Shown here in pieces: positions 2,715 to 64,000 of a stretch of DNA of 64,000 nucleotides. The stretch is from Malus domestica (lineage: Eukaryota > Streptophyta > Magnoliopsida > Rosales > Rosaceae). The stretch's first letter is position 1. Every line of letters begins with the position of its first letter. The stretch covers positions 25,573,501-25,637,500 of the forward strand of contig NC_091665.1 of assembly GCF_042453785.1 (NCBI RefSeq), read 5' to 3'. The position numbers and the translations under genes were made by a program. The notes beneath the pieces are model-generated. The model had not been told where the DNA came from. It made no database searches and was given only the letters and a program-made list of their open reading frames with translations.

Positions 2715-3095
2715 ACTTGTCATTAAGAGTGTTTATATATTTTTTCTATATTTTTTTACACTTCTATATTAATTAAAAAACTATTAAAGACTTTAGATAA
2801 GCGAAAATATACTTAAAACAAAATTGCGTTTTTATGTTTTGGATGTGATAATATGGAATGTATATACTTATTTAGTATTATGTTTTTCATTTGATTATTT
2901 ATTGGTTTAAAATATATTTTCCTTAACGGGTAACGGGTCGGGTCATATTACCTGTTAATATTATCGGGTCGATTTCGGGTCGGGTCATTTTACCCGTTTA
3001 TTTTAACGGGTGTTACACGACACGACCCGTTAAGATATCGGGTATGACACGAAAACGACACGAACACGGAAAACACGACACGAATGCCAGGTCTA
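2715..3095. mobile_element. Probable right terminus of a DNA transposon with GTGTCGTGTC-type subterminal repeats
   Basis: After an AT-rich stretch the sequence becomes densely repetitive in GGGTCGGGTC, ACCCGTT and ACACGACACGA motifs (2925-3080) and ends at 3095 with GCCAGGTCTAG, whose reverse complement starts CTAGACCTGGC. Such subterminal repeats and tips occur on plant hAT- or Mutator-like non-autonomous elements. The left end is outside the window, so the family and target duplication cannot be tested. Confidence 0.45.
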
Positions 3096-3097
3096 GT

Positions 3098-3373
3098 TGC
3101 AATCAAAAGGAGTTATTAACATCACATTAATTTACTTCTTAAATTGCTTTAAGAAATTTCAGTTATAGACTTTGAAATGAAAAAATATGCGGTGCAAACT
3201 TTACCAGTTGATGCAGATCAAATCAAAGCGTAATTCAAATTCAAACAAGAAATAAAACAAAACGGTTTGATTGCATAACTCCTTAAGCTAAAATCAATTG
3301 ACTTTCAATATTGGTAATAAAACAAAACATAAATATATTTAAATATTTAAATAAAAACATATTTGTTCCAACA
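3098..3373 (-). repeat. 3' LTR of Copia-derived element
   Basis: This copy is nearly identical to 5088-5363; the clearest difference is T versus G seven bases before the TGTTGG end. It lies next to the purine tract at 3374-3386. Confidence 0.85.
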
Positions 3374-3874
3374 ATCCCCCACTTGTTTTTATTTAAAAAC
3401 TATATATCAACCAACATATAATAAAGCTATGCATAAGTAAAGGTGTTTCTCAACTTGAACCTGGTTAGTGATCCAGATTATACTAGAGTAACTTATAGTT
3501 TTGAACTCTATCTCTGACAACACCACGCACATAACTTTATTAAGGTGAAGTTCAAAAAGCCAGCACATTACGGCCATGTGCTTGTATCCCAGTATAGTGA
3601 ACGCTCTAGAAACTTACCCAAGATTTCATAGGAAGCGGTGTCACTTCCACATTCACATAGGTAAGACTATCAAGGATATTCATGTAGCTAGATATCCCAC
3701 TCAACATAGAGTATAGACCTTACTAAGAGAAAAAATCTCAACCTAAAACCGCTTCAGGATGCCATGCTTCTTAGGGATGGACATGAAATAATATTCCAAA
3801 TTAAAAATTAGCATGACTTCACTCATATCACTTGTGACTTGTTATTACCCTTTGAACCTATTTCTTGGGATCTC

Positions 3875-5363: not shown

Positions 5364-6793
5364 AAAATTAAGCAACCCTAAACCAATATTAAGTTCGGAA
5401 GACTTCACAGAGGGTTGAGAACAGAGTTGGGTGGTTTATGAGCCGTCCTTTTCCAAGAGAGTAAGGTGGTATATGTTAGGTAGATTAAATTTCTAAATCA
5501 TGTGATGTTTACTAATAGGAAACAAACACGTTAATTAACACTTCAATATTAATCCAATCATCACCAATCAAGTCATATAACTTATAAAATTTAGTCTAAA
5601 TAATTAGTCTTTCTGGTAGTAGCTTTTTTAAACCTCTAACAATGTCATATTTTCAAAGGAAAACTAATGGAAATGGCTTGAAAACTTTGAGTTTTAACTG
5701 TAAGCACAAAATAAAGGATAAAGTGAATAGTATAAAGATTTACTTTTTAATGTAAAAATATGATTTTTCGTTAAAATGAATAATATCGAAAAATTTTCGT
5801 TAAAGTTCTTTTTTTTTTCAAAAGATACTCAGGTCAAATGGTATGCAAAAAATGGGGAAACAAGGGATACTATCACATCAAATGGCATGAAGTGCTGATA
5901 TTCTCTTGCATGCGATTCTCATGTGTGAATGCACGGACGAGTGTGACAAATCACTTCCCTAACTATATTACAAATAAATAAAAAAGCTTTAAATCTTTAT
6001 TTTCTGGGTAAATAAAAAACTGTAAAGCTGAAAAGGCAGACTGTGCTATTAGTATAAATGGTCACACTCGATCTTCCAATCATGCGTTTAGGTTTTGAGC
6101 AATCATTCATTAGGGTTCATGATGAACTTTGATAACAACCATTTCAAGCCGCTAGGTTTTGAGCAACTTTCCATTGTCGCGGCTAGTTGGCCTTTTTAAC
6201 CTGTTCATTGCTCACTGGGTAGGAACTAGGAAGTGTATGTGTGTGTGTGTATATCTGTATACATTAAACTACAAGAAAAAAAAATACCAGATTCAAGATG
6301 ACATATTTTTTATATTTTTCAAGATCGAGATTATATTTAAAATAGGATTCATAAAAAGGGAGAGACAGGTCAATAGACCGAAAAGAAATGGCACATGATG
6401 TCTCATCAATTTTTATTTTTTTATTTTTTAATTCTGTAAATTATATAATGCATGAATCGCCTTTTTTTCTTCTTAATCTGACATAGAATCACCTTTCAAG
6501 ATGAATAATGATGTATGACACTCAAATTATATATAATCACATAATGTACATCAAATATTGTAAATGGTAGCATGGGCATTTTAGGCTAATCTCATGGCCT
6601 TTGTATATTTTTTAGTTTTTAGTGTAGTTTCTACGTTAGACCAACTCTTCCCCACATGCTCTCGTGGTTGGAATTTGAATATTCCAAATCGAAGATCTTT
6701 TGGCATTTGAGAACAAAAGCTAGTTATAAGACTTGTTTAATTAATAGAGAATTGTTATTAGCATCTTAAAAATTTTATTTGCCACTCCTTGCA
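5364..6793. other. Intergenic, no gene seen
   Basis: AT-rich sequence with no exon structure or family match that I can support. It holds a short TG microsatellite near 6236-6254. Its right part (about 6735-6793) is AT-rich DNA abutting the LTR fragment that starts at 6794. Confidence 0.6.
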
Positions 6794-6993
6794 TGTCACG
6801 GTCCGTCCCGAACTTCTATTATCGATGATGTAAAATGACGGAATTGTCCTCGGACGTTAATTGATGTGTGTGAATTATTATTGGGTTAAATTGTTTTAGA
6901 TTGGTGACCCAATTAGAACTAAGACTTTTCTTAGTTTTGATTGGTGGCTTTTGGACCACACACACACTCATCTTTTCTCTCTCTCCTTCCCGT

Positions 6994-7027
<34 letters not shown>

Positions 7028-7560
7028 ACTCTCACTCTCTTTCTCCCTTCTTCGTACGGACCAACCCAGAAACCCTCTCAAACCTTGTAGATCGAAGGTT
7101 TTAAGATTACCATTGTGTTCGTGAGGACCATACGAGTTCAAAGGTACGATTTTCAAGTAAGGAAACCTTCGATTTCACGTGGAAACCCTAGCTCCGATTT
7201 TGTCACTGTTCATGCATACGTGAAATCTTATGTTTCAGGGAATTTGAAGCTTATAGGAAGCTTAAGGAGGTCCTCACGAGTCTCGGGGTACTTCGTTGGA
7301 AGAAATTGGACGTCAGAGGGTTGAGATCGACGTATATCTAGGTAAGCCGAACTATCGAGCTTTCCCGGGGAAAACCTAGTAGATTTTAAGCCTTGAAACT
7401 TATATAACGTGATTCTATATGTTATTAGCTTCATTTTGGTACCAATTTTGTGGAAAATGGTGAAGAAACGAAAGAGAATAAGCGATTTAAAGTTTTACCC
7501 AGAAGCCGGCGAAGTCACTGGCAACCGGCGACTTGCCGGAGAAGAAATGAGCATATTCCG
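6794..7560 (+). mobile_element. 5' part of a gypsy-type LTR, truncated
   Basis: It starts TGTCACGGTCCGTCCCGA, the style of Ty3/gypsy LTR ends, and runs parallel to the first ~730 bases of the complete LTR at 7860. Shared features in the same order are the GACCCAATT(A/G)GAACT block, a CT-rich stretch, the CCAGAA(G/A)CCGG block and a final ATATTCCGT. Similarity then stops and transposase coding sequence begins at 7563. It is a diverged, 3'-truncated member of the same LTR family as the neighbouring solo LTR. Confidence 0.7.
6993..7024. repeat. CT microsatellite
   Basis: An uninterrupted CT dinucleotide run lies within the LTR leader. Confidence 0.9.
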
Positions 7561-29401: not shown

Positions 29402-32400
29402 ATGGATATAGCTGCTCCTGCTTCTGCTGGTGGCGGCGGTGGACCTGGTGGTGGTGCTGATGTCCACCCTTCTCGAGAAAAGTATGATGTGTTTATTAGT
29501 TTCAGAGGCGAGGACACCCGCAATACTTTTACTAGCCATCTTCACGGTGCCTTACTCCAGAAGAAAATTGAAACCTACATAGATTACAGACTTGTGAGAG
29601 GGAGTGAAATTGCACCTGCCCTTCTAGAAGCCATCGAGAAATCTACGCTTTCGTTAGTCATTTTCTCACAAAACTATGCATCTTCCACCTGGTGCTTGGA
29701 TGAACTTGCGCACATACTAAACTGCAGGGAGACAGTTGATCAGATGGTCATACCTATTTTTTACGACATCAGTCCATCAGATGTACGAAAACAACAGGGG
29801 ACTTATGCAGATGCATTTGCTCAACTTGAAATCCGTTTCAAGGACAGTATCGACAAGGTGCACAAGTGGAGGGCTGCTTTGGTGACAGTAGCTAATCTAT
29901 CTGGCTTCGATTATTCAAACAAAACTGGGTAACTAATTCTATAACTTCTTGTGATTCCTACTTTTGAACATTTAATGCATACAGGAGTAGTTAAGGAATA
30001 CCTATTACTAACTATTACTTGTACGTCATATAATTGCCAGGACGGAGGCCGATTTAGTTAAGAAAGTTGTCGACGAAATTTGGGGCAAATTGAATCAAAA
30101 ATCGTCAAGCAATTTAAAGGGCCTGGTTGGAATGGAAAAACGCATTGACCAAGTTGAGTCAACATTATGCATTGATTCCCTTGATGTATACGCTGTAGGT
30201 ATTTGGGGCATGGGTGGGATTGGCAAGACCACCCTTGCTGATGCTGTGTTTCACCGATTCTCTTCTAAATTCGAAGCTTCATGTTTTCTTAAAAATGTCA
30301 GGGAGATATCTGAACAAACAGGTGGACTGGATCGCTTGCGAAACACACTTGTTAGTGAGATATTAAAGGAAAAAGATGTAAATATTGGCACTCTGACTAT
30401 AGGATCATATCGTGTTAGGAAGAGAATGGGAGGTACGAAGGTCCTCATTGTTCTTGATGATATAAATGATTCAAACCAATTAAATTTTCTAGCCGGAGAT
30501 CCTACTCTATTTGGCCCTGGAAGTAGAATCATTATAACAACTAGAGATAAGAGCCTACTTCAGAAACTTGTTGATCATAATAAGATATGCAAGGTTCAGG
30601 AATTAAATTCTGATGAAGCTCTTCAACTCTTTCGTTTGTGTGCTTTCGGAAATAACATTTCTAGAGTCGATTGTACAGAGTTGTCAAAAGTTGTGGTTGA
30701 TTATTGTGGGGGCATTCCGTTAGCTCTTCAAATTTTGGGTTCCTCATTCCTTCACTGTGAGAGCAAAGAAGATTGGCTGGATGAATGGAAAGAATTTCCA
30801 AGAGAAAAGATCTGGAAAGTGTTCAGATCAAGTTATGATGGATTAAAAGAAATTGAGAAGGAGATATTTCTTGATATAGCATGTTTCTATCAAGGGAAAG
30901 ATGTGGACATTGTAAAAGAAATGCTAGATATATGTGGTTTTCGTGCAGCAGGAATCGAAGTTCTGAGTGATAAGTCTCTCATATCAATTTCAACAAATAA
31001 CTGCTTGGAGATGCATAACTTGCTACAAGAAATGGGTAGGGCAATTGTTCACGAACAATGTATTGAAGAGCCTATAAAATGCAATAGATTATTCTTTGAT
31101 GAGGATGTCAATCGGGATTTGAAAACTAACACGGTAAGATCTCCAAATGCATTCAATTTCATGTAAATTTTTTTGTATATTGTGTTGTATTCACATTATT
31201 GATACTTTGCTCTTGATTCTCAGGGAAGTGCAACGGTACAAGCCATATTCTTTAACAGGTCTAAGATTACAGGGATACTCTTGAATCATGCAGACTTCGA
31301 AAAGATGTATGATCTAAGATTGCTATACGTTTATAATTCTAGCTGTAACAAGTACTGCAAAGTAAAAGTTTCTCTTCCCCATTCTCTTACTTATCTTGGC
31401 TGGGAGGGTTACCCTTTCAAATCTTTGCCATCAAAACTTTGTCCGGAAAATCTTGTTGAGCTTCAAATGCGCAACAGTCAAGTTGAGCAACTTTGGAATG
31501 AGGGCCAGGTATGTATATGCTTATTTTATTAAATAAATGCGGTGTAGAGATCTATTTGATCAGTCTATGTTATTAATTCTTTCCAATTGTCATTGATTTG
31601 TTACAGAATCTTAAGAACTTAAAAGTGATGGATCTTCGTTTGTCCGAGCATCTGATTAAAGTTCCAGATCTCTCTCAAAGTCCAAACATTGAGCATATAG
31701 ATCTTTACGGGTGTAAAAGTCTGGTTGAAATTCCTTCTTATTTTCCATGTCTCGACAAGCTTAGTTACCTTAACCTGACAGACTGCACAAAACTCAAATA
31801 TCTTTCGGAGATGCCAAGTAGTATTGAATACTTATATTTGGATAGCACTGCAATAGAGGAATTGCCTTCATCAGTTTGGTCTTTTGAAAAAATTCGGTGC
31901 TTGGAGCTTCCCAATAACATACCAATATTGGACTTGAGTGGGAATGCGACTAATTGCAAAATTCTTGTGAGTCTCCTAGAGAGCATTTGCAAATTAAAGT
32001 CTCTTAAGAGCCTTGATCTGAGTGGAACCACAATTAGAAGCCTACCTGCAAGCATTGGTAACTTAGAATCTCTTGAGAAACTTGATTTGAGTGGAACTGC
32101 AATTAGAAGCCTACCTGCAAGCATTGGTAATTTGGAATCTCTTGAGAAACTTGATCTTAATGGAACTGCAGTTAAAAGCCTACCTGCGAGTATTGGTAAT
32201 TTGGAATCACTTGAGAAACTTGATCTGAGTGGAACCACAATTAAAAGCCTACCTGCAAGCATTGGTAATTTGAAATCTCTTGTGAAACTTTATCTGAGTG
32301 GAACTGCAATTGAAGGGCTACCTGCAAGCATTGGTAATTTGAAATCTCTTAAGAAACTTGATCTGAGTGCAACCGCAATTGAAAGTCTACCTGCAAGCAT

Positions 32401-34235
32401 TGGTAATTTGGAATCTCTTGAGAACCTTGATTTGAGTGGAACCGCAATTAAAAGCCTACATGCAAGCATTGGTAAATTGCAATATCTTCAGAAATTTTAT
32501 CTGAGTGGAACCGCAATGGAAAGCCTACCTGCAAGCATTGGTAATTTGAAATGTCTGGATAAACTTGATCTGAGTGAAACCGCAATTAAAAGCCTACCTG
32601 CAAGCATTGGTAGTTTGAGATCTCTTGAGAAACTTGATCTGAGTGGAACTGCAATTGAAAGCCTACCTTCAAGTATTGGTAGTTTGAAATCTCTTGAGAA
32701 CCTTGATCTGAGTGGAACCGCAATTGAAAGCTTACCTGCAAGCTTTGACAATTTGAATTCTCTTGTGAAACTTGATCTGAGTGGAACCGCGTTTAAAAGC
32801 TTACCTGCAAGCATTGGTAATCTGAAATCTCTTGAGAAACTTGATCTGAGTGGAACCGCAATTGAAAGCCTACCTGCAAGCATTGGTAATTTGAAATCTC
32901 TTGAGAAACTTGATCTGAGTGGAACCGCTGTTGAAAGCCTACCTGCAAGCATTGGTAATTTGGAATCTCTTGAGAAACTTGACCTAAGTGGAACAGCAAT
33001 TAAAAGCCTACCTGCAAGCATTGGTAATTTGGAATGTCTTGAGAAACTTGATCTGAGTGGAACCGCAATTGAAAGCCTACCTGCAAGCATTGGTAATTTG
33101 GAATCTCTTAAGAAACTTGATCTGAGTGGAACCGCAATTGAAAGCCTACCTGCAAGAATTGGTAATTTGAAATCTCTTGAGAAACTTGATCTGAGTGGAA
33201 CCGCAATTAAAACCCTACCTGCACGCATTGGTAATTTGAAATCCCTTGAGAAACTTGATCTGAGTGGAACTGCAATCAAGTGCCTACCTGCAAGCATCAA
33301 GGAAGCTTCTCGGCTGATTTCGCTGTGGTTAACCAATTGCAGGAGCCTTGAATCTTTACCAGAGCTCCCAGGGGTACGTTGGCTTGAAGCACATGGATGC
33401 ACATCACTCAACAAAGTGCTGAGCTCAAAGACTGCACTTTCACTAGGTTGGGATGAATATAAACATTCTCAAGGGCTTCAAGAGCAACTTACATTTTCAA
33501 ATTGCATAGGAATGGGAGGGGATGCTTGGCATGATATATTGACTGATTCGCAGATAAGAATTATGCGAATGGCAACTGCGTTATCAAAGTATTTTACACA
33601 AGAAGAAATTGAAGTGGCATTTCATCTTGAATTTGAAGAAGAAAGTAATGTACGTCTCTCTGTCTCTGTCTCTCTCTTTCTGTGTTGTTAAATTGAATAA
33701 CTCGGGTTCTCTGCTCTCTAACACATTTATTGATGAACAGGAATATGTTTTTAGATCTCCAGTTTGCATTGTATGTCCGGGAAGTACAATTCCAAGTTGG
33801 TTTCCAAACGAAGCTGATAATTCTGCACTAGCAATCAACCTTGGTTCAAACTTCTTTAACACTAGTTTTTTGGGTTTTGCTTATTCTGTTGTTGTTGCAT
33901 TCGAGAATTATAATGTTGGAGGGAGTTTGAGTCTTGGGTGTAAAATCAATTTCAAAGGCTGTGGTGATCCTTTTATCTATCATCGGAGTTGCATGGTTGC
34001 CGAATACGGGGAAATCAATGACTGCAAGTTTGATACGCCTCACGTGTTCGTCTGGTTTAGTAGCTTTGACCATGTAAAGCAAGGAAGCTACAATGGCGTT
34101 ACCGAGGCCATATTTGACTTCTACCCAATAATAGAGGATCGTCCTGATGACGGAGCCGTTGATTGTTCCAATATTAAGGTGACAAAGTGTGGGATCTTCC
34201 CAATGTATGCTCCAAATGATTCTGCATTGAAATAA
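29402..34235 (+). CDS. TNL-1: TIR-NBS-LRR immune receptor
   Basis: Five exons with GT-AG borders (29402-29928, 30041-31133, 31224-31508, 31607-33649, 33741-34235) join to 1480 residues. The TIR domain spans about 27-165, with YDVFISFRGEDTR and WCLDEL; Glu101 is the expected NADase residue. NB-ARC motifs are the P-loop GMGGIGKTT 232-240, kinase-2 LIVLDD 311-316, RNBS-B GSRIIITTR 336-344, GLPL-type GGIPLALQ 399-406, and MHN at 500-502 instead of MHD. LRRs follow: irregular ones from ~541, then 18 units of 23 residues at 779-1192. The C-terminal ~164 residues (PGSTIPSWF onward) are the post-LRR C-JID-type domain. By family the product is a cytoplasmic/nuclear sensor whose TIR makes NAD+-derived signals through EDS1. 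An earlier Met (29363) is possible but lies before a likely splice acceptor. No break is seen, so I judge it potentially functional; the ligand is unknown. Confidence 0.92.
32036..33277 (+). repeat. 69-bp coding minisatellite: 18 LRR units of TNL-1
   Basis: Exactly 18 consecutive 69-base units encode variants of SLPASIGNLKSLEKLDLSGT followed by AI-E/K. DNA identity between units is very high, pointing to recent unequal exchange or slippage. The variable positions are mainly (E/K)S, (E/K)SLEK and the AI/TI/AV triplet. The unit length is a multiple of three, so all additions and losses keep frame. Confidence 0.97.
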
Positions 34236-38580: not shown

Positions 38581-39171
38581 CTCCCATTGAGTGTGTAAAT
38601 ACTTAAATAAATGGCGCATCAGGTTTTCAACAATGAAGTAAATATAGTTGATGAAGTCATCGACAGAATGAATGAATGCGAGTCTCAAAACAACGGAAGA
38701 ATGCATAAAAGGTAAAACTCACAAAATCTCGCTATGGTAAAACCCAAGGTGGGAGAAAACCCCATAGACTAAGGAAAAAAGTGAGAAGTTGCATTAAGTC
38801 AAAATTATACGTCTTCTAAACGCAAGTAGAAGAGCTCACAAAGGTATGATCAGCCTAGGATGAGTGCCTCGTCAAAACCTAGTTAGGTAGCAAAAATCCA
38901 GTGGAAAAAATGCTCATAATCATAAGGAAAAAGAGTACATTAATATCAAGTGAGTATACTTTTGGATACTCCCCCTGAGTTTGACATAACTTCTAAATGA
39001 GAACTACAAGCATTGCATATGAATAATTAGGCATACAAATTCCTCGAACAAGCTTCTGGAAGGTTGACTTCGGCAGTGATGTCGTGAAGAGGTCGACAAG
39101 ATTGTCTGGGATCGGCTTACATGACTTCAATCTTCTGATCCTTTTGCTGATGTAAACGCAATATGTCTTGG
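38581..39171 (-). pseudogene. Copia pol tail fused to the TNL-2 TIR exon
   Basis: The minus strand at 38993-39202 reads IPDNLVDLFTTSLPKSTFQK and LVRGICM, the end of a Copia RNase H (usually DNLADLFTKSLP-STF). Downstream on the minus strand come a purine tract CTCAGGGGGAGTATCC (about 38965-38980) and ~390 bases of spacer before the LTR. At about 39172 the Copia sequence joins TNL-2 TIR coding sequence directly, so everything upstream in the element and the first half of the TIR exon have been deleted. Confidence 0.8.
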
Positions 39172-42100
39172 CGTTGACTTGTGTTTGGATGAACTTGCAC
39201 ATATACTACACTGCAGGGAAAAATATGGCCAGTTGGTTATACCCATTTTCTACGGCACTAGTCCATCAACGGTACAAATACAAAAGGGGAGTTATGAAGT
39301 TGCGTTTGCTCAACTTGAAAAACGTTTCAAGGGCACTATCGACAAGGTGAACGCGTGGAGGGCTGCTTTGACGGCTGCAGCTAATCTTTCTAGCTTCTCA
39401 AACAAAACAGGGTAACTAATTCTAAAACTTTTAGTGATTTCTACTCATGAAAATTAAATGCATACAGAATTAATTAACAATGCCTATTACCAACTGTTAG
39501 TTGTCCATCATATATTTGCCAGGACGGAGGCCAATTTAGTTAAGAAAGTTGCAAATGAAATTTGGAGCCAATTGAATCGAAAATCTTCAAGTGTTTTACA
39601 GGGCTTTGTTGGAATAGAAAAACGCATTGACCAAATTGAGTCATCATTATGCATTGATTCACTTGATGTATACACTCTAGGTATTTGGGGCATGGGTGGC
39701 ATTGGCAAGACCGCCCTTGCTGATGCTGTGTTTCACCGACTCTCGTCTTGTTTTCTTGGAAATGTTAGGGAGAAATAAGAAAAAAAGATGGACTAGTTCA
39801 CTTGCGAAACACACTTCTTAGAAAGATATTGAAAGAAAAAGATATAAATATCGGCACTCCAACTATAGGATCAGATCTTGTTAAAAAGAGGATGGCAGGT
39901 ACGAAGGTACTCATTGTTCTTGATGATGTAAATGATTCAAACCAATTAATTTTTCTAGCTGGCGATCCTGCTCTGTTTGGCCCTGGAAGTAGAATCATTA
40001 TAACGACTAGAGATAAGAACCTACTTCAGAAAAGCGTTGAACATAATAAGATATGCAAGGTTCAGGAATTAAATTCTGATGAAGCTTTTCAACTATTTCA
40101 TTTGAGTGCTTTCCGAAATAAAACTGCTAGCGAAGATTATACCGAGTTGTCCAAACTTGTGGTAGAATATGCTGGAGGCATTCCATTAGCTCTTAAAATT
40201 TTGGGTTCCTCATTCCTTCACTGTGAGAGCAAAGAAGATTGGCTGGATGAATGGAAAGAATTTCCAAGAGAAAAGATCTAGAATGTGCTGAGATCAAGTT
40301 ACGATGGATTAAAAGAAATTGAGAAGGAGATATTTCTTGATATAGCATGTTTCTATCAAGGGAAAGATGTGTACATTGTAAAAGAAATGCTAGATATATG
40401 TGGCTTTCGTGCAGCTGGAATCGGAGTTTTGATTGATAAGTCTCATATCAATTTCATCAAATAACCGCTTGGAGGTGCATAGCTTGTTACAAGAAATGGG
40501 TAGGGCGATTGTTCACGAACAATGTATTGAAGAGCTCATAAAATGCAATAAATTATTCTTAGATGAGGATGTCAATCGGGATTTTAAAACTAAACGGTAA
40601 GAGTAAGATCTCCAAATGCATTCAGTTTCATCTAAGTTTTTTTGTAGATTGTGTTCATATTCATAATTTGTTCTTATTCTCAGGGAAGTGCAACGCTACA
40701 AGCCATTTTCTTTAACAGGTCTGCAATTGGAGGGATACTTTTGAATCATGCAGACTTTCAAAAGATGTATGATCTAAGGTTGCTGTATGTTTACAACTCT
40801 AGCCGTAACAAGTACTGCAAAGTAAAAGTTTCTCTTCCCCATTCTCTTACTTATCTTGACTTGAAGGGATACCCTTTCAAATCTTTGCCATCAAAACTTT
40901 GTTCAGAATATCTTGTTGAGCTTCAAATGCGCAACAGCCAAGTTGAACAACTTTGGAACGAGGGCCAGGTATTTATATGCTTATTTTATTAAATAAAAGC
41001 GGTGTAGAAGTCTATTTGGTCTGTCTGTTATTAATTCTTTCCAATTGTCATTGATTTGTTACAGAATCTTAGGAACTTAAAAGTGATGGATCTTGGTTTG
41101 TGTGATCGTCTGATTAAAGTCCCAGATCTCTCTCAAAGTCCTAACATTGAGCATATAGATCTTTATGGGTGTTTGTCTGGTTGACATTCCTTCGTATTTT
41201 CCATGTCTCGACGAGCTTAGTTATCTTAACCTGACAGACTGCACCACACTCAAATATGTTCCGGAGATGCCAAGCAGTATTGAGTACTTACATTTAGATA
41301 GCACTGCAATAGAGGAATTGCCGTCATCAGTTTGTTCTCTTGAAAAAATTCGATGCTTGGAGCTTCCCAAGAATATACCAGTATTAGACTTGAGTGGGGC
41401 AGCGACTACTTGCAAAAATCTTGTGAGTCTCCCAGAGACCATTTGTAAATTAAAATCTCTGAAGAGACTTGATCTGAGTGGAACCACAATAAAAAACCTA
41501 CCTGCAAGCATTGGTAATATGAAATCTCTTGAGAAACTTGGTCTGAATGGAACTGCAATTGAAAGCGTACCTGCAAGCATTGGAGATTTGAAATCTCTTG
41601 AGAAACTTGATCTGAGTGGAACCACAATTAAAAGCCTACCTGCAAGCATTGGTAATTTGAAATCTCTTAAGAAACTTGATCTGAGTGGAAGTGCAATTGA
41701 AAGCCTACCTGCAAGCATAGGTAATTTGGAATCTCTTGAGAAACTTGATCTGACTGGAACCACAATTAAAAGCCTACCTGCAAGCATTGGTAATTTGAAA
41801 TCTCTTAAGAAACTTGATCTGTGTGGAAGTGCAATTGAAAGCCTACCTGCAAGCATTGGTAATTTGGAATCTCTTGAGAAACTTGATCTGAGTGGAAGCG
41901 CAATTGAAAGCCTACCTGCAAGAATTGGAAATTTGAAATCTCTTGAGAAACTTGATCCGAGTGGAAGCGCAATTGAAAGCCTACCTGCAAGCATTGGTAA
42001 TTTGAAATCTCTTGAGAAACTTGATCCAAGTGGAAGTGCAATTGAAAGCCTACCTGCAAGCATTGGTAATTTGGAATCTCTTGAGAAACTTGATCTGAGT

Positions 42101-61355: not shown

Positions 61356-61979
61356 TAATAATAATAATAGGGGTTAGGTTGATCTTTGAATTTTCGGCAC
61401 TATTGACTTACTATTGAGGTTCTAGAATTGGACGAATTTTTGTAAAAATGATCCTTGAATCACGCAAATTTGTGGAGAGAAGTCAAATACGTGACTAATT
61501 AGTGCTTATACATTATGTCAGAATTTACTGATTTAGAGTGAAAATCTATATGTATAACTTTATAAATCTATTGTTTGTAATGTTGGTGATGGTGATGGAG
61601 TCTGCAACGTCGTTCTCAAGTGCGCATCGGGAGTTTCGCAACATGTCACAACTCTTTTCAGCATCAGTCGTAAGACACGACACGGGCCACGTGATATGGT
61701 CAACTGCAGCCACCCGGTGCCAAAAGTCTTTAGTTTGAATGCTTAAAAGTGCATTCCACGAAGTGTTTGGGTAATTTCCTTCCTACTTTAATTTTTATTT
61801 GTACATATCTGGTGCAATCCAATTGGTGTCATTCATCTTACTCGCTTGTTATAAAGAAAAGAGAGATGGAGTTCATTGGGTTCTTTCAAGTTCTCATCGT
61901 CGTCACTTCCATCGGTACTCTGTTGTACACGTGCTTCAGATCATTAACATTTTCTTGTTGGTCTTTTTTGATAGGATGC
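61356..61979. other. Intergenic, no gene seen
   Basis: It starts with an AAT microsatellite (61355-61370). No supported gene lies before the LTR at 61980. Confidence 0.5.
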
Positions 61980-62215
61980 TGTTAGTAATTGTTGGTTGTT
62001 AGTGCTAAGTATCATATCTGTTAGTAATTGTTGATTGTTAGTGCCAATAATAATTGGTTGGTTAGAGATAAGATTTGGGAAATATCTTGTAACTGCCTTA
62101 GCTTGCAGTTCGGTATAAATACTGAACACTTGTGCAAATGCAGGGCATATCTTGTAAAAGAAGTTGTTGAATGATACTGAGAGGAATATTACTGTACAAG
62201 TGTAAGGTTAGAACA
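61980..62215 (+). repeat. 5' LTR of a gag-bearing retrotransposon, upstream of TNL-4
   Basis: 236 bases from TGTTAGTAATTG to TTAGAACA. It contains an internal repeat of TGTTAGTAATTGTTG(G/A)TTG and a TATA box at 62114. A primer-binding site follows at 62229-62239. The downstream partner LTR is not in the window. Confidence 0.75.
62114..62121 (+). promoter_or_regulatory. TATA box in the LTR
   Basis: TATAAATA lies 157 bases upstream of the chimeric start codon at 62271, in the usual LTR promoter position. It could drive TNL-4 transcription. Confidence 0.55.
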
Positions 62216-62228
62216 ATGGGTTGTATTA

Positions 62229-62239
62229 TTGGTATCAGC
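62229..62239 (+). other. Primer-binding site (tRNA-iMet type)
   Basis: TTGGTATCAG, just after the LTR, matches the TGGTATCAGAGC complement of initiator tRNA-Met used by many plant LTR retrotransposons. Confidence 0.7.
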
Positions 62240-62270
62240 CAGTAACAAACCTCCACGTTTTCCTTCTTGT

Positions 62271-64000
62271 ATGACGAGAGCAACGACGCGTGCCAAAACC
62301 ATGGATACACGATTAGCAGCTCTTGAAGGTTCGGTTCAGGAAATCCAATCTTCCGTCGCAACGATCGGGTCGACAATGCAGAATCTGTCCGCTGTAATCG
62401 CATCAATGGAGTCTCGATTGGAGTTTCATTTTTCAGGCGCTGATCGTCCTCATCGTGCTCATGCTGACCATGGTGATTCTGCAAATCAAATGGGTGGGTC
62501 GGAAGAAACCTTGTCTGATCCAATTGCTCATATGGGTCGGCGTTTTCCCCGTCAAGATTCGTCGGGCGATGATGATATCCCAGCCCCTCGAGAAAAGTAT
62601 GATGATGATGATGATTGTATCCCAGCCCCTTTAGAAAAGTATGATGTGTTTATTAGTTTCAGAGGTGAGGACACCCGCAATACTTTTACTAGCCATCTTC
62701 ACGCTGCCTTACTCCGGAAGAAAATTGAAACCTACATAGATTACAGACTTGTGAGAGGGGGTGAAATTGCACCTGCCCTTCTAGAAGCAATCGAGAAATC
62801 TACGCTTTCGTTGGTCATTTTCTCACAAAACTATGCATCTTCCACCTGGTGCTTGGATGAACTTGCACATATACTACACTGCAGGGAAAAATATGGCCAG
62901 TTGGTTATTCCCATTTTTTACGGCACCGGTCCATCAACGGTACGAAAACAAAAGGGGAGTTATGAAGTTGCATTTGCTCAACATGAAAAACGTTTCAAGG
63001 GCGCTATCGGCAAGGTGAACGTGTGGAGGGCTGCTTTGACGACTGCAGCTAATCTATCTGGCTTCTCAAACGAAACAGGGTAACTAATTCTATAACTTGT
63101 AGTGTTTGTTCAAAAAACAAAAAAAAAATTCTATAACTTGTAGTGAATTCTACTCATGAAAATTTAACGCATGCAGGATTAATTAATGAATGCCTGTAAC
63201 TAATTATTAGTTGTCCGTCATATATTTGCCAGGACGGAGGCCGATTTAGTTACGGAAGTTGTAAACGAAATTTGGAGCCAGCTGAATAGAAAATCGTCAA
63301 GTGTTTTAAAGGGCCTTGTTGGAATGGAAAGATGCATTCATGAAATTGAGTCATCATTATGCATTGATTCACTTGATGTATACACTGTAGGTATTTGGGG
63401 CATGGGTGGCATTGGCAAGACCACCCTTGCTGATGCTGTGTTTCATCGACTCTCTTCTAAATTTGAAGCTTCTTGTTTTCTTGAAAATGTGAGGGAGAAA
63501 TCGGCAAAAGATGGACTAGTTCACCTGCGAAACACACTTCTTAGTGAGATATTGAAGGAAAATGATCTAAACATCGGCACTCCAACTATAGGATCAGATC
63601 TTGTTAGAAAGAGGATGGGAGGTACGAAGGTCCTCATTGTTCTTGATGATGTAAGTGATTCAAAGCAATTAAATTTTCTAGCTGGAGATCCTGCTCTGTT
63701 TGGCCCCGGAAGTAGAGTAATTATAACAACTAGAGATAAGAGCCTACTTCAGAAAAGTGTTGAACATAAGATATACGAGGTTCAGGAATTAAATTCTGAT
63801 GAAGCTTTTCAACTCTTTCATTTGAGTGCTTTTGGAAATAACATTTCTAGAGTCGACTGTGCAGAGTTGTCTAAACTTGTGGTAGATTATTGTGGAGGGA
63901 TTCCATTAGCTCTTCAAATTTTGGGTTCCTCATTCCTTCAATGTGAGAGTAAAGAAGATTGGCTGGATGAATGGAAAGAATTTCCAGGAGAAAAGATCTG
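62271..64000 (+). CDS. TNL-4: retrotransposon gag-TIR-NBS-LRR fusion, 3' cut by window
   Basis: Exon 1 (62271-63079) is one open frame. Residues 1 to about 100 (MTRATTRAKTMDTRLAALEG, then a heptad-like coil with SVQEIQSSVATIG) look like the N-terminus of a gypsy-type gag. There follow two copies of an IPAPREKYD/IPAPLEKYD linker with a run of Asp, then a complete TIR domain from about residue 124 with FISFRGEDTR and WCLDEL (Glu197). Exon 2 starts at 63233 after CAG and is open to 64000, with GMGGIGKTT, LIVLDDVSD, GSRVIITTRD and GGIPLALQ. Splice sites match TNL-1. The stretch before the ATG contains the retrotransposon LTR and primer site. The LRR part is outside the window, so integrity of the whole gene is unknown. 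Confidence 0.85.

Follow-up and report, generated by a model that had tools for sequence, protein, structure and literature searches.

Retrotransposon-derived domains recur on NLR immune receptors. Gag-type domains fused to NLRs have been recorded in species including Malus domestica (PMC4759884), and RVT and Retrotran_gag_2 are frequent among NLR integrated domains (PMC12787737). The first of these surveys describes such retrotransposon domains as widespread and its evidence for transposon-made fusions as insufficient (PMC4759884). LTR elements also alter NLR genes in place, as at rice Pit (Renovator) and Arabidopsis RPP7 (COPIA-R7) (PMC5056178), and add NLR diversity in pepper through retroduplication (PMC5664825). 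In apple, an LTR element has been linked to the scab resistance Rvi2, which lies at a different place, on Chr02 (PMC13017756). The flax receptors L6 and M are TNLs with N-terminal signal anchors, and deletion of the L6 anchor gave a destabilised, non-functional protein (PMC3801107).

Here we analysed a stretch of 64,000 nucleotides of the Malus domestica genome (hereafter, the window; G000:C5:25573501-25637500), and the genome searched comprised 651 Mb in 19 contigs. The TNL gene at the end of the window resembles the surveyed NLRs in carrying a retrotransposon domain. The surveys count Pfam domains without showing the origin of a fusion (PMC4759884, PMC12787737). In the window gene the captured piece is not covered by the Pfam gag model, and both the insertion point and the deletion points can be located. 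As at Pit and RPP7, an LTR element altered an NLR gene in place; there the promoter or polyadenylation was affected, whereas here the coding N-terminus was swapped too (PMC5056178). The pepper NLRs were copied through RNA, unlike the window gene, which keeps its introns and reflects an in-place event (PMC5664825). A retroduplicated origin, with an RNA copy that has lost its introns, was considered and ruled out by the presence of intron 1. The intact paralog and the cut-off leader described below are hydrophobic before the TIR as in L6 and M, whereas in the window gene the signal-anchor-like leader is replaced by an LTR-gag segment (PMC3801107). Judged by titles and abstract openings, no gag-TNL of the same kind was among the literature matches listed.

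The fused gene and its receptor domains

Translation gave a single open frame (within ORF 62229-63083) that runs from a gag ATG at 62271 to the end of the TIR exon at 63079 with zero stops, and in which 98 gag residues are joined directly to the TNL linker and the TIR exon. The first-pass annotation had read an LTR, a PBS, a gag start and a TIR in succession without a stop or frame change, and this order holds. The TIR, the usual TNL splice site and the open NB-ARC exon that it described were likewise recovered, with Pfam placing the TIR domain at residues 123-266 of 270 and NB-ARC in the next exon. The TIR exon ends at 63079 and is followed by GTAACT, the acceptor AG ends at 63232, and the related protein P0121 runs across this site as SNETG-TEADLV. 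The receptor features are as follows.

62637-63068, plus strand: TIR domain (PF01582, E 1.9e-48; fold of the RPV1 TIR 5ku7, E 5.2e-15)
63080-63232, plus strand: TNL intron 1 (splice sites; P0121; stops at 1581-1701 of the stretch from C5:25635001)
63233-64000, plus strand: NB-ARC exon, cut by the window end (PF00931, E 3.5e-29; the gene continues to C5:25642177)
771-1579, 1733-~2819, 2905-3189, ~3290-3868, 3930-~6500 and 6569-7177 of the stretch from C5:25635001: exons, by alignment to P0121 and P0122

In the stretch from C5:25635001 (window 61501) the exons align to P0121 and P0122 in a coding frame without stops, and the seven stops in one alignment of the fused gene are those inside intron 1 (1581-1701). 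Past exon 2 the borders given are approximate, and for the repeated post-LRR part there are several alternative alignments to both proteins. The domain order is that of a TNL (TIR, NB-ARC, LRR, C-JID); the first two domains lie in the window, and the exons of the downstream stretch (L009) align to the LRR and C-JID parts of P0121. With an extra non-NLR domain in the NLR frame, at 62271-63079 and in P0121 and P0122, the gene belongs with the NLRs that carry integrated domains. In the fused gene, 905 codons are open at L009:3816-6530 and comprise repeated LRR and C-JID blocks, so that gene copies may differ in post-LRR module number.

The same junction in two other proteins

P0121, a Malus sylvestris protein of 1536 aa annotated as 'disease resistance-like protein DSC1 isoform X20', begins at the same gag ATG and shares the junction and the linker duplication, with identity at 96/98 gag residues and 169/172 residues from the junction to the exon end. 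P0122 (1594 aa) begins at the second ATG of the gag part, which lies at 62301 in strong context, and agrees at 85/88 gag residues and 171/172 residues from the junction to the exon end. Both are full-length TNLs that lack the leader, and they are encoded on other contigs, of 47127301 and 45331606 bases respectively, compared with 46786874 bases for the window contig. Recurrence of the junction in a related species, which the first-pass annotation had proposed to look for, was thus found in Malus sylvestris.

Repeats and NLR clusters are in general prone to misjoins, and an assembly join at about 62570-62640 had been named as a way in which the fusion could be spurious. A join in a single assembly is very improbable because the identical junction stands on two further contigs, with private differences, and we give next to no weight to an assembly or annotation join.

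The source element

The genome search with window 61980-62640 gave at least 31 matches, a number that includes the window and two matches to the TNL side. The limits of the LTR were read by eye from the 5' and 3' ends of five related elements in the same genome. The LTRs of these relatives run TGATAGG...TATTA (TAATAGG in C9a), and their 5-bp flanking repeats are AAGAA, GAGCT/TAGCT (one mismatch), GTAAC, GAGTA and GATAT, four of them exact.

61964-61968, no strand assigned: TTTTT adjoining the LTR 5' end, candidate 5' target-site duplication with the second copy lost (5-bp duplications in relatives)
61969-62228, plus strand: Ty3/gypsy LTR (TGATAGG...TATTA), 260 bp (ends from the 5' and 3' LTRs of five relatives; alignment)
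62114-62121, plus strand: TATA box TATAAATA of the LTR (identical in 5/5 relatives)
62230-62238, plus strand: primer-binding site TGGTATCAG (directly 3' of the LTR as in the relatives, then CC)
62271-62564, plus strand: gag N-terminus, 98 codons, predicted pre-capsid coiled coil (homology to P0123-P0125; homology end; heptads)

The LTR reported in front of gag is present, and with these limits the earlier start at 61980 falls inside it. The TATA box also stands, as the region GGTATAAATACT has the same letters in the window and in all five aligned relatives. The position of the PBS is as reported, and its nine bases presumably fit tRNA-iMet. The sequence TGGTATCAGCC is present in three of the five relatives and has one base change in the other two.

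The LTR is common to two-LTR elements with target-site duplications, and the gag is homologous to the P0123 polyprotein, both as expected for a source of this kind. At the locus itself the second LTR and the target-site duplication are absent; the element part ends at 62564 and the TNL follows. By these alignments the element portion is a remnant.

The captured gag segment

The gag search was run with a 999-residue carrier in which only 105 residues were scored, against a database of 5.8 billion sequences. Of 93 candidates, five passed E <= 10, the TNL proteins P0121 and P0122 and three Ty3/gypsy proteins, namely P0123 (a Malus domestica polyprotein of 1408 aa, E 8.9e-33 to the gag piece), P0124 (Malus domestica) and P0125 (Pyrus x bretschneideri). 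Counted from the second ATG, the gag piece is identical to these three at 74/88, 70/88 and 61/88 residues. The gag identity of the N-terminus, for which a database check of residues 1-105 had been suggested, is therefore confirmed. Its length needed correction: the gag part covers 98 residues and not about 105, and 62565-62646 is TNL linker.

P0123 contains Ty3_capsid from residue 127 and Retrotrans_gag from 135, as well as protease, RT, RNase H and integrase domains. Because its capsid domains begin at 127/135, the fused 98 residues are, by domain position, the pre-capsid gag N-terminus, without capsid or nucleocapsid. Pfam gave no gag domain on residues 1-105, where the best weak matches were coiled-coil families, because Retrotrans_gag begins only at residue 135 of P0123. 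A search with the gag piece restricted to about 148-472 aa had no match at E <= 0.001 among its 44 candidates, the longer homologues being outside that length range. Beyond RQDSS (RQESF in P0125) the gag proteins diverge from the window sequence, and element homology stops at 62564 in three of the five relatives; in the remaining two it stops at 62563 and 62560.

The gag frame is open through the counterpart of 62271-62564 in two of the five relatives (C7 and C9b), and in the other three the longest frame reported does not span the gag stretch. Pairwise ratios on the gag piece were 0.22 (window/C9b), 0.92 (window/C7) and 0.34 (C7/C9b), all from few changes. From the pairwise counts, the window branch has about 3.5 replacement and 2 silent changes, plus a 9-bp deletion. 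The window gag copy (region 62418) lacks nine bases, and with them the three residues FSA, which are present in P0121 and P0122; four of the five aligned relatives have bases at this place, and C12 has its own gap there.

The interrupted leader and an insert-free paralog

Upstream of the LTR, ATG 61866 opens a hydrophobic leader, MEFIGFFQVLIVVTSIGTLLYTCFRSLTFSCWSFLIGCC, that is terminated by TAG 61983 and TAA 61986 within the LTR.

61808-61865, plus strand: 5' flank of the native gene, common to the empty-site paralog on C16 (blastn 61808-61968 against C16, 161 bp, 90.7%)
61866-61985, plus strand: native leader ORF, 39 codons, MEFIGFFQVLIVVTSIGTLLYTCFRSLTFSCWSF.., stop TAG 61983-61985 in the LTR, signal-anchor-like (Maleae TNL leaders, stops, hydropathy, paralog)
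62565-62646, plus strand: native TNL linker with a 42-bp tandem duplication, IPAPxEKYD twice (repeat; C16 match from 62567)

For the leader comparison, 125 proteins were fetched, and the 47 with a recognisable TIR start and at least 20 preceding residues were kept and the rest omitted. For at least 15 of these 47 leaders, counted among the best 25 comparisons, none of 200 shuffles of the window leader scored as high. The best 19-residue mean hydropathy was 2.0 for the leader, 2.4 for the C16 paralog and 1.0 for the gag-TIR N-terminus; the class also includes less hydrophobic short database leaders (P0038, 0.8; P0023, 0.6). P0014 matches both flanks of the insert, that is, the leader, and the linker via GDIPLPREKYD.

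The insert-free paralog lies on C16 (minus strand, near 10611152-10611184), where the same leader continues straight into the TIR, MEFIGFFQVFIIVTAIITLLYTCFRSLKFSCWPFYTSFSSSADDDDDDIPAPREKYDGDDIPPPKYDVFISF. Its left match stops at 61968, the last base ahead of the LTR, and its identity to the window is 90.7% over 61808-61968 and 93.5% over 62567-64000 (blastn). Between the two matches are 31 paralog bases, and window 62565-62566 belongs to neither match, giving a linker loss of about 29-31 bp. C16 has open frames of 384, 115, 207 and 198 codons at the places of the next exons. The dN/dS against C16 was about 0.63 for the TIR exon and 0.51 for the NB-ARC exon, values that are uninformative on the fused branch.

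The hydrophobic N-terminus is in the same protein as the TIR in the C16 paralog, and is absent from that position in the window gene owing to the stops at 61983 and 61986. By comparison with this paralog, the receptor gene's own start is at ATG 61866, upstream of the LTR, and the linker that follows the gag is the TNL's own, GDDDIPAPREKYD. The first-pass annotation had taken gag as an extra domain on a plain TNL start; instead, the element broke exon 1 and replaced the leader. A search for microhomology at the join found nothing clear, with one of the six given loci matched on the strand searched.

The sister gene TNL-1 (29363) had been offered as the comparison. It was rejected as the ancestral form, as its match to the window gene begins only at 62633 and its leader, MDIAAPASAGGGG, is of another class (compare P0009); the intact C16 paralog is the fitting counterpart. 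From the alignment, TNL-1 is a paralog of the fused gene, not its ancestor.

The native leader and 5' flank are still in place, and a transcript from the native promoter with the LTR spliced out would restore leader and TIR. No splice pair restored an open frame from 61866 to the TIR (donors scoring >= 0 in 61880-61989, acceptors >= 2 up to 62640), and P0121 and P0122 are without the leader, which leaves this reading little chance of being right.

The linker tandem duplication (window 62568-62646) is also present in P0121 and P0122, and partly in the C16 paralog. A third leader copy, without a TIR, was found in the cluster (L012:1703-2065, C5:25666703), reading MEFIGFFQVLLMVAAIMTLLYACFRS...IPAPQEEYDEGD; the sequence beyond it is unrelated. 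The TNL that comes next after this leader-only fragment (L012:8235) has a different leader.

Origin and predicted activity of the fused receptor

Because the leader of the C16 paralog runs into the TIR and its match ends at 61968, the element would have entered exon 1, and an insertion there followed by an in-frame deletion almost certainly created the gag-TNL fusion. The starting state would have been a leader-linker-TIR exon, which the element entered after 61968 in sense orientation. The loss of the element's 3' part, together with about 30 bp of linker, would then have joined gag codon 98 in frame to the linker and TIR. The sequence is compatible with either order, a whole element that was later cut or one truncated on arrival.

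We put the probability that this origin is correct and that the product is a working gag-TNL receptor, the two taken jointly, at about 0.5. Transcripts from the LTR, with gag first as in the element and translated from the gag ATG, would yield a leaderless TNL that bears a gag coiled coil followed by a flexible tail. Those from the old promoter would be largely unproductive, as translation of the leader ORF ends within the LTR after 39 codons. The coiled coil that the first-pass annotation predicted in the gag part is supported by an unbroken run of 12 heptad core positions in the window sequence (14 each in P0121-P0125), a length that none of 20000 shuffles reached for any of these six sequences. 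AlphaFold models residues 2-54 as a helix and the residues up to 121 as disordered, followed by the TIR; the block means of its confidence are 73-87 up to residue 40, drop to 64 over residues 41-50 and lie below 50 thereafter. The model TIR is closest to the TIRs of RPV1 (5ku7, E 5.2e-15), ROQ1 and RUN1. Induced proximity of TIRs is able to start defence (PMC7414095). In the gag-TNL, the coiled coil would hold TIR domains in proximity or lend stability to the receptor without its leader, and the fused protein would move from the endomembrane to the cytosol.

The conserved LTR TATA box, the open downstream exons, the annotation of P0121 from the gag ATG, the heptad run and the helix suggest a working receptor. 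The loss of an anchor of the kind L6 has, the frequent silencing of LTRs in general, the three lost residues, an alternative splice acceptor and the falling AlphaFold confidence from residue 41 on speak against one. It is possible, and here we are tentative, that the origin is the same and the receptor is disabled, its leader lost, its LTR silenced and its frame merely young, so that the allele is heading to a pseudogene. L6 needs its anchor to accumulate (PMC3801107), a leader-only fragment lies in the cluster at C5:25666703, and the few changes on the window branch of gag together with the 9-bp deletion would equally fit a young unconstrained piece. Against a disabled receptor, the frame is open to the gene end here, as it is in P0121 and P0122, with the reservation that annotation pipelines tend to select models that are open.

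Splicing may also bear on the product. A candidate donor in the LTR at 62207 (4.3) and an acceptor inside gag at 62436 (6.2) are the best-scoring in the stretch, through which a transcript may skip the coiled coil, and in-frame ATGs at 62490 and 62532 would allow a downstream start. The receptor made would then amount to a plain TNL that has no leader and is driven by the LTR promoter, with the gag frame incidental. This is unlikely: the annotations of P0121 and P0122 include the gag part, and the scores come from weak matrices that give the gene's own intron 1 only 2.9 for its donor and 3.7 for its acceptor.

Taken to its full extent, a working gag-TNL would make this an apple and crab apple receptor with promoter, start codon and N-terminal domain from one retrotransposon, a formerly membrane-anchored TNL turned soluble, whose TIRs are held together by a gag coiled coil and whose activation threshold is lowered; we regard this extended form as doubtful.

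At this locus the intact target gene, the insertion point, the LTR ends, the deletion points and the fused product are all readable from the sequence. The intact and the fused copy in one genome form a natural test pair for the role of an N-terminal anchor and for the effect of a foreign coiled coil on TIR activation. Pfam-based surveys can overlook such fusions because the gag domain models do not cover the captured part.

Elsewhere in the window, a TNL copy at 39100-39440 has a TIR exon whose similarity to the window gene starts only mid-exon (from 39178), and is preceded by sequence that we take to be copia-like. The LRR part of TNL-1 (window 32000-33297) contains 18.8 copies of a 69-bp unit with 88% matches, and long antisense open frames run through this array.
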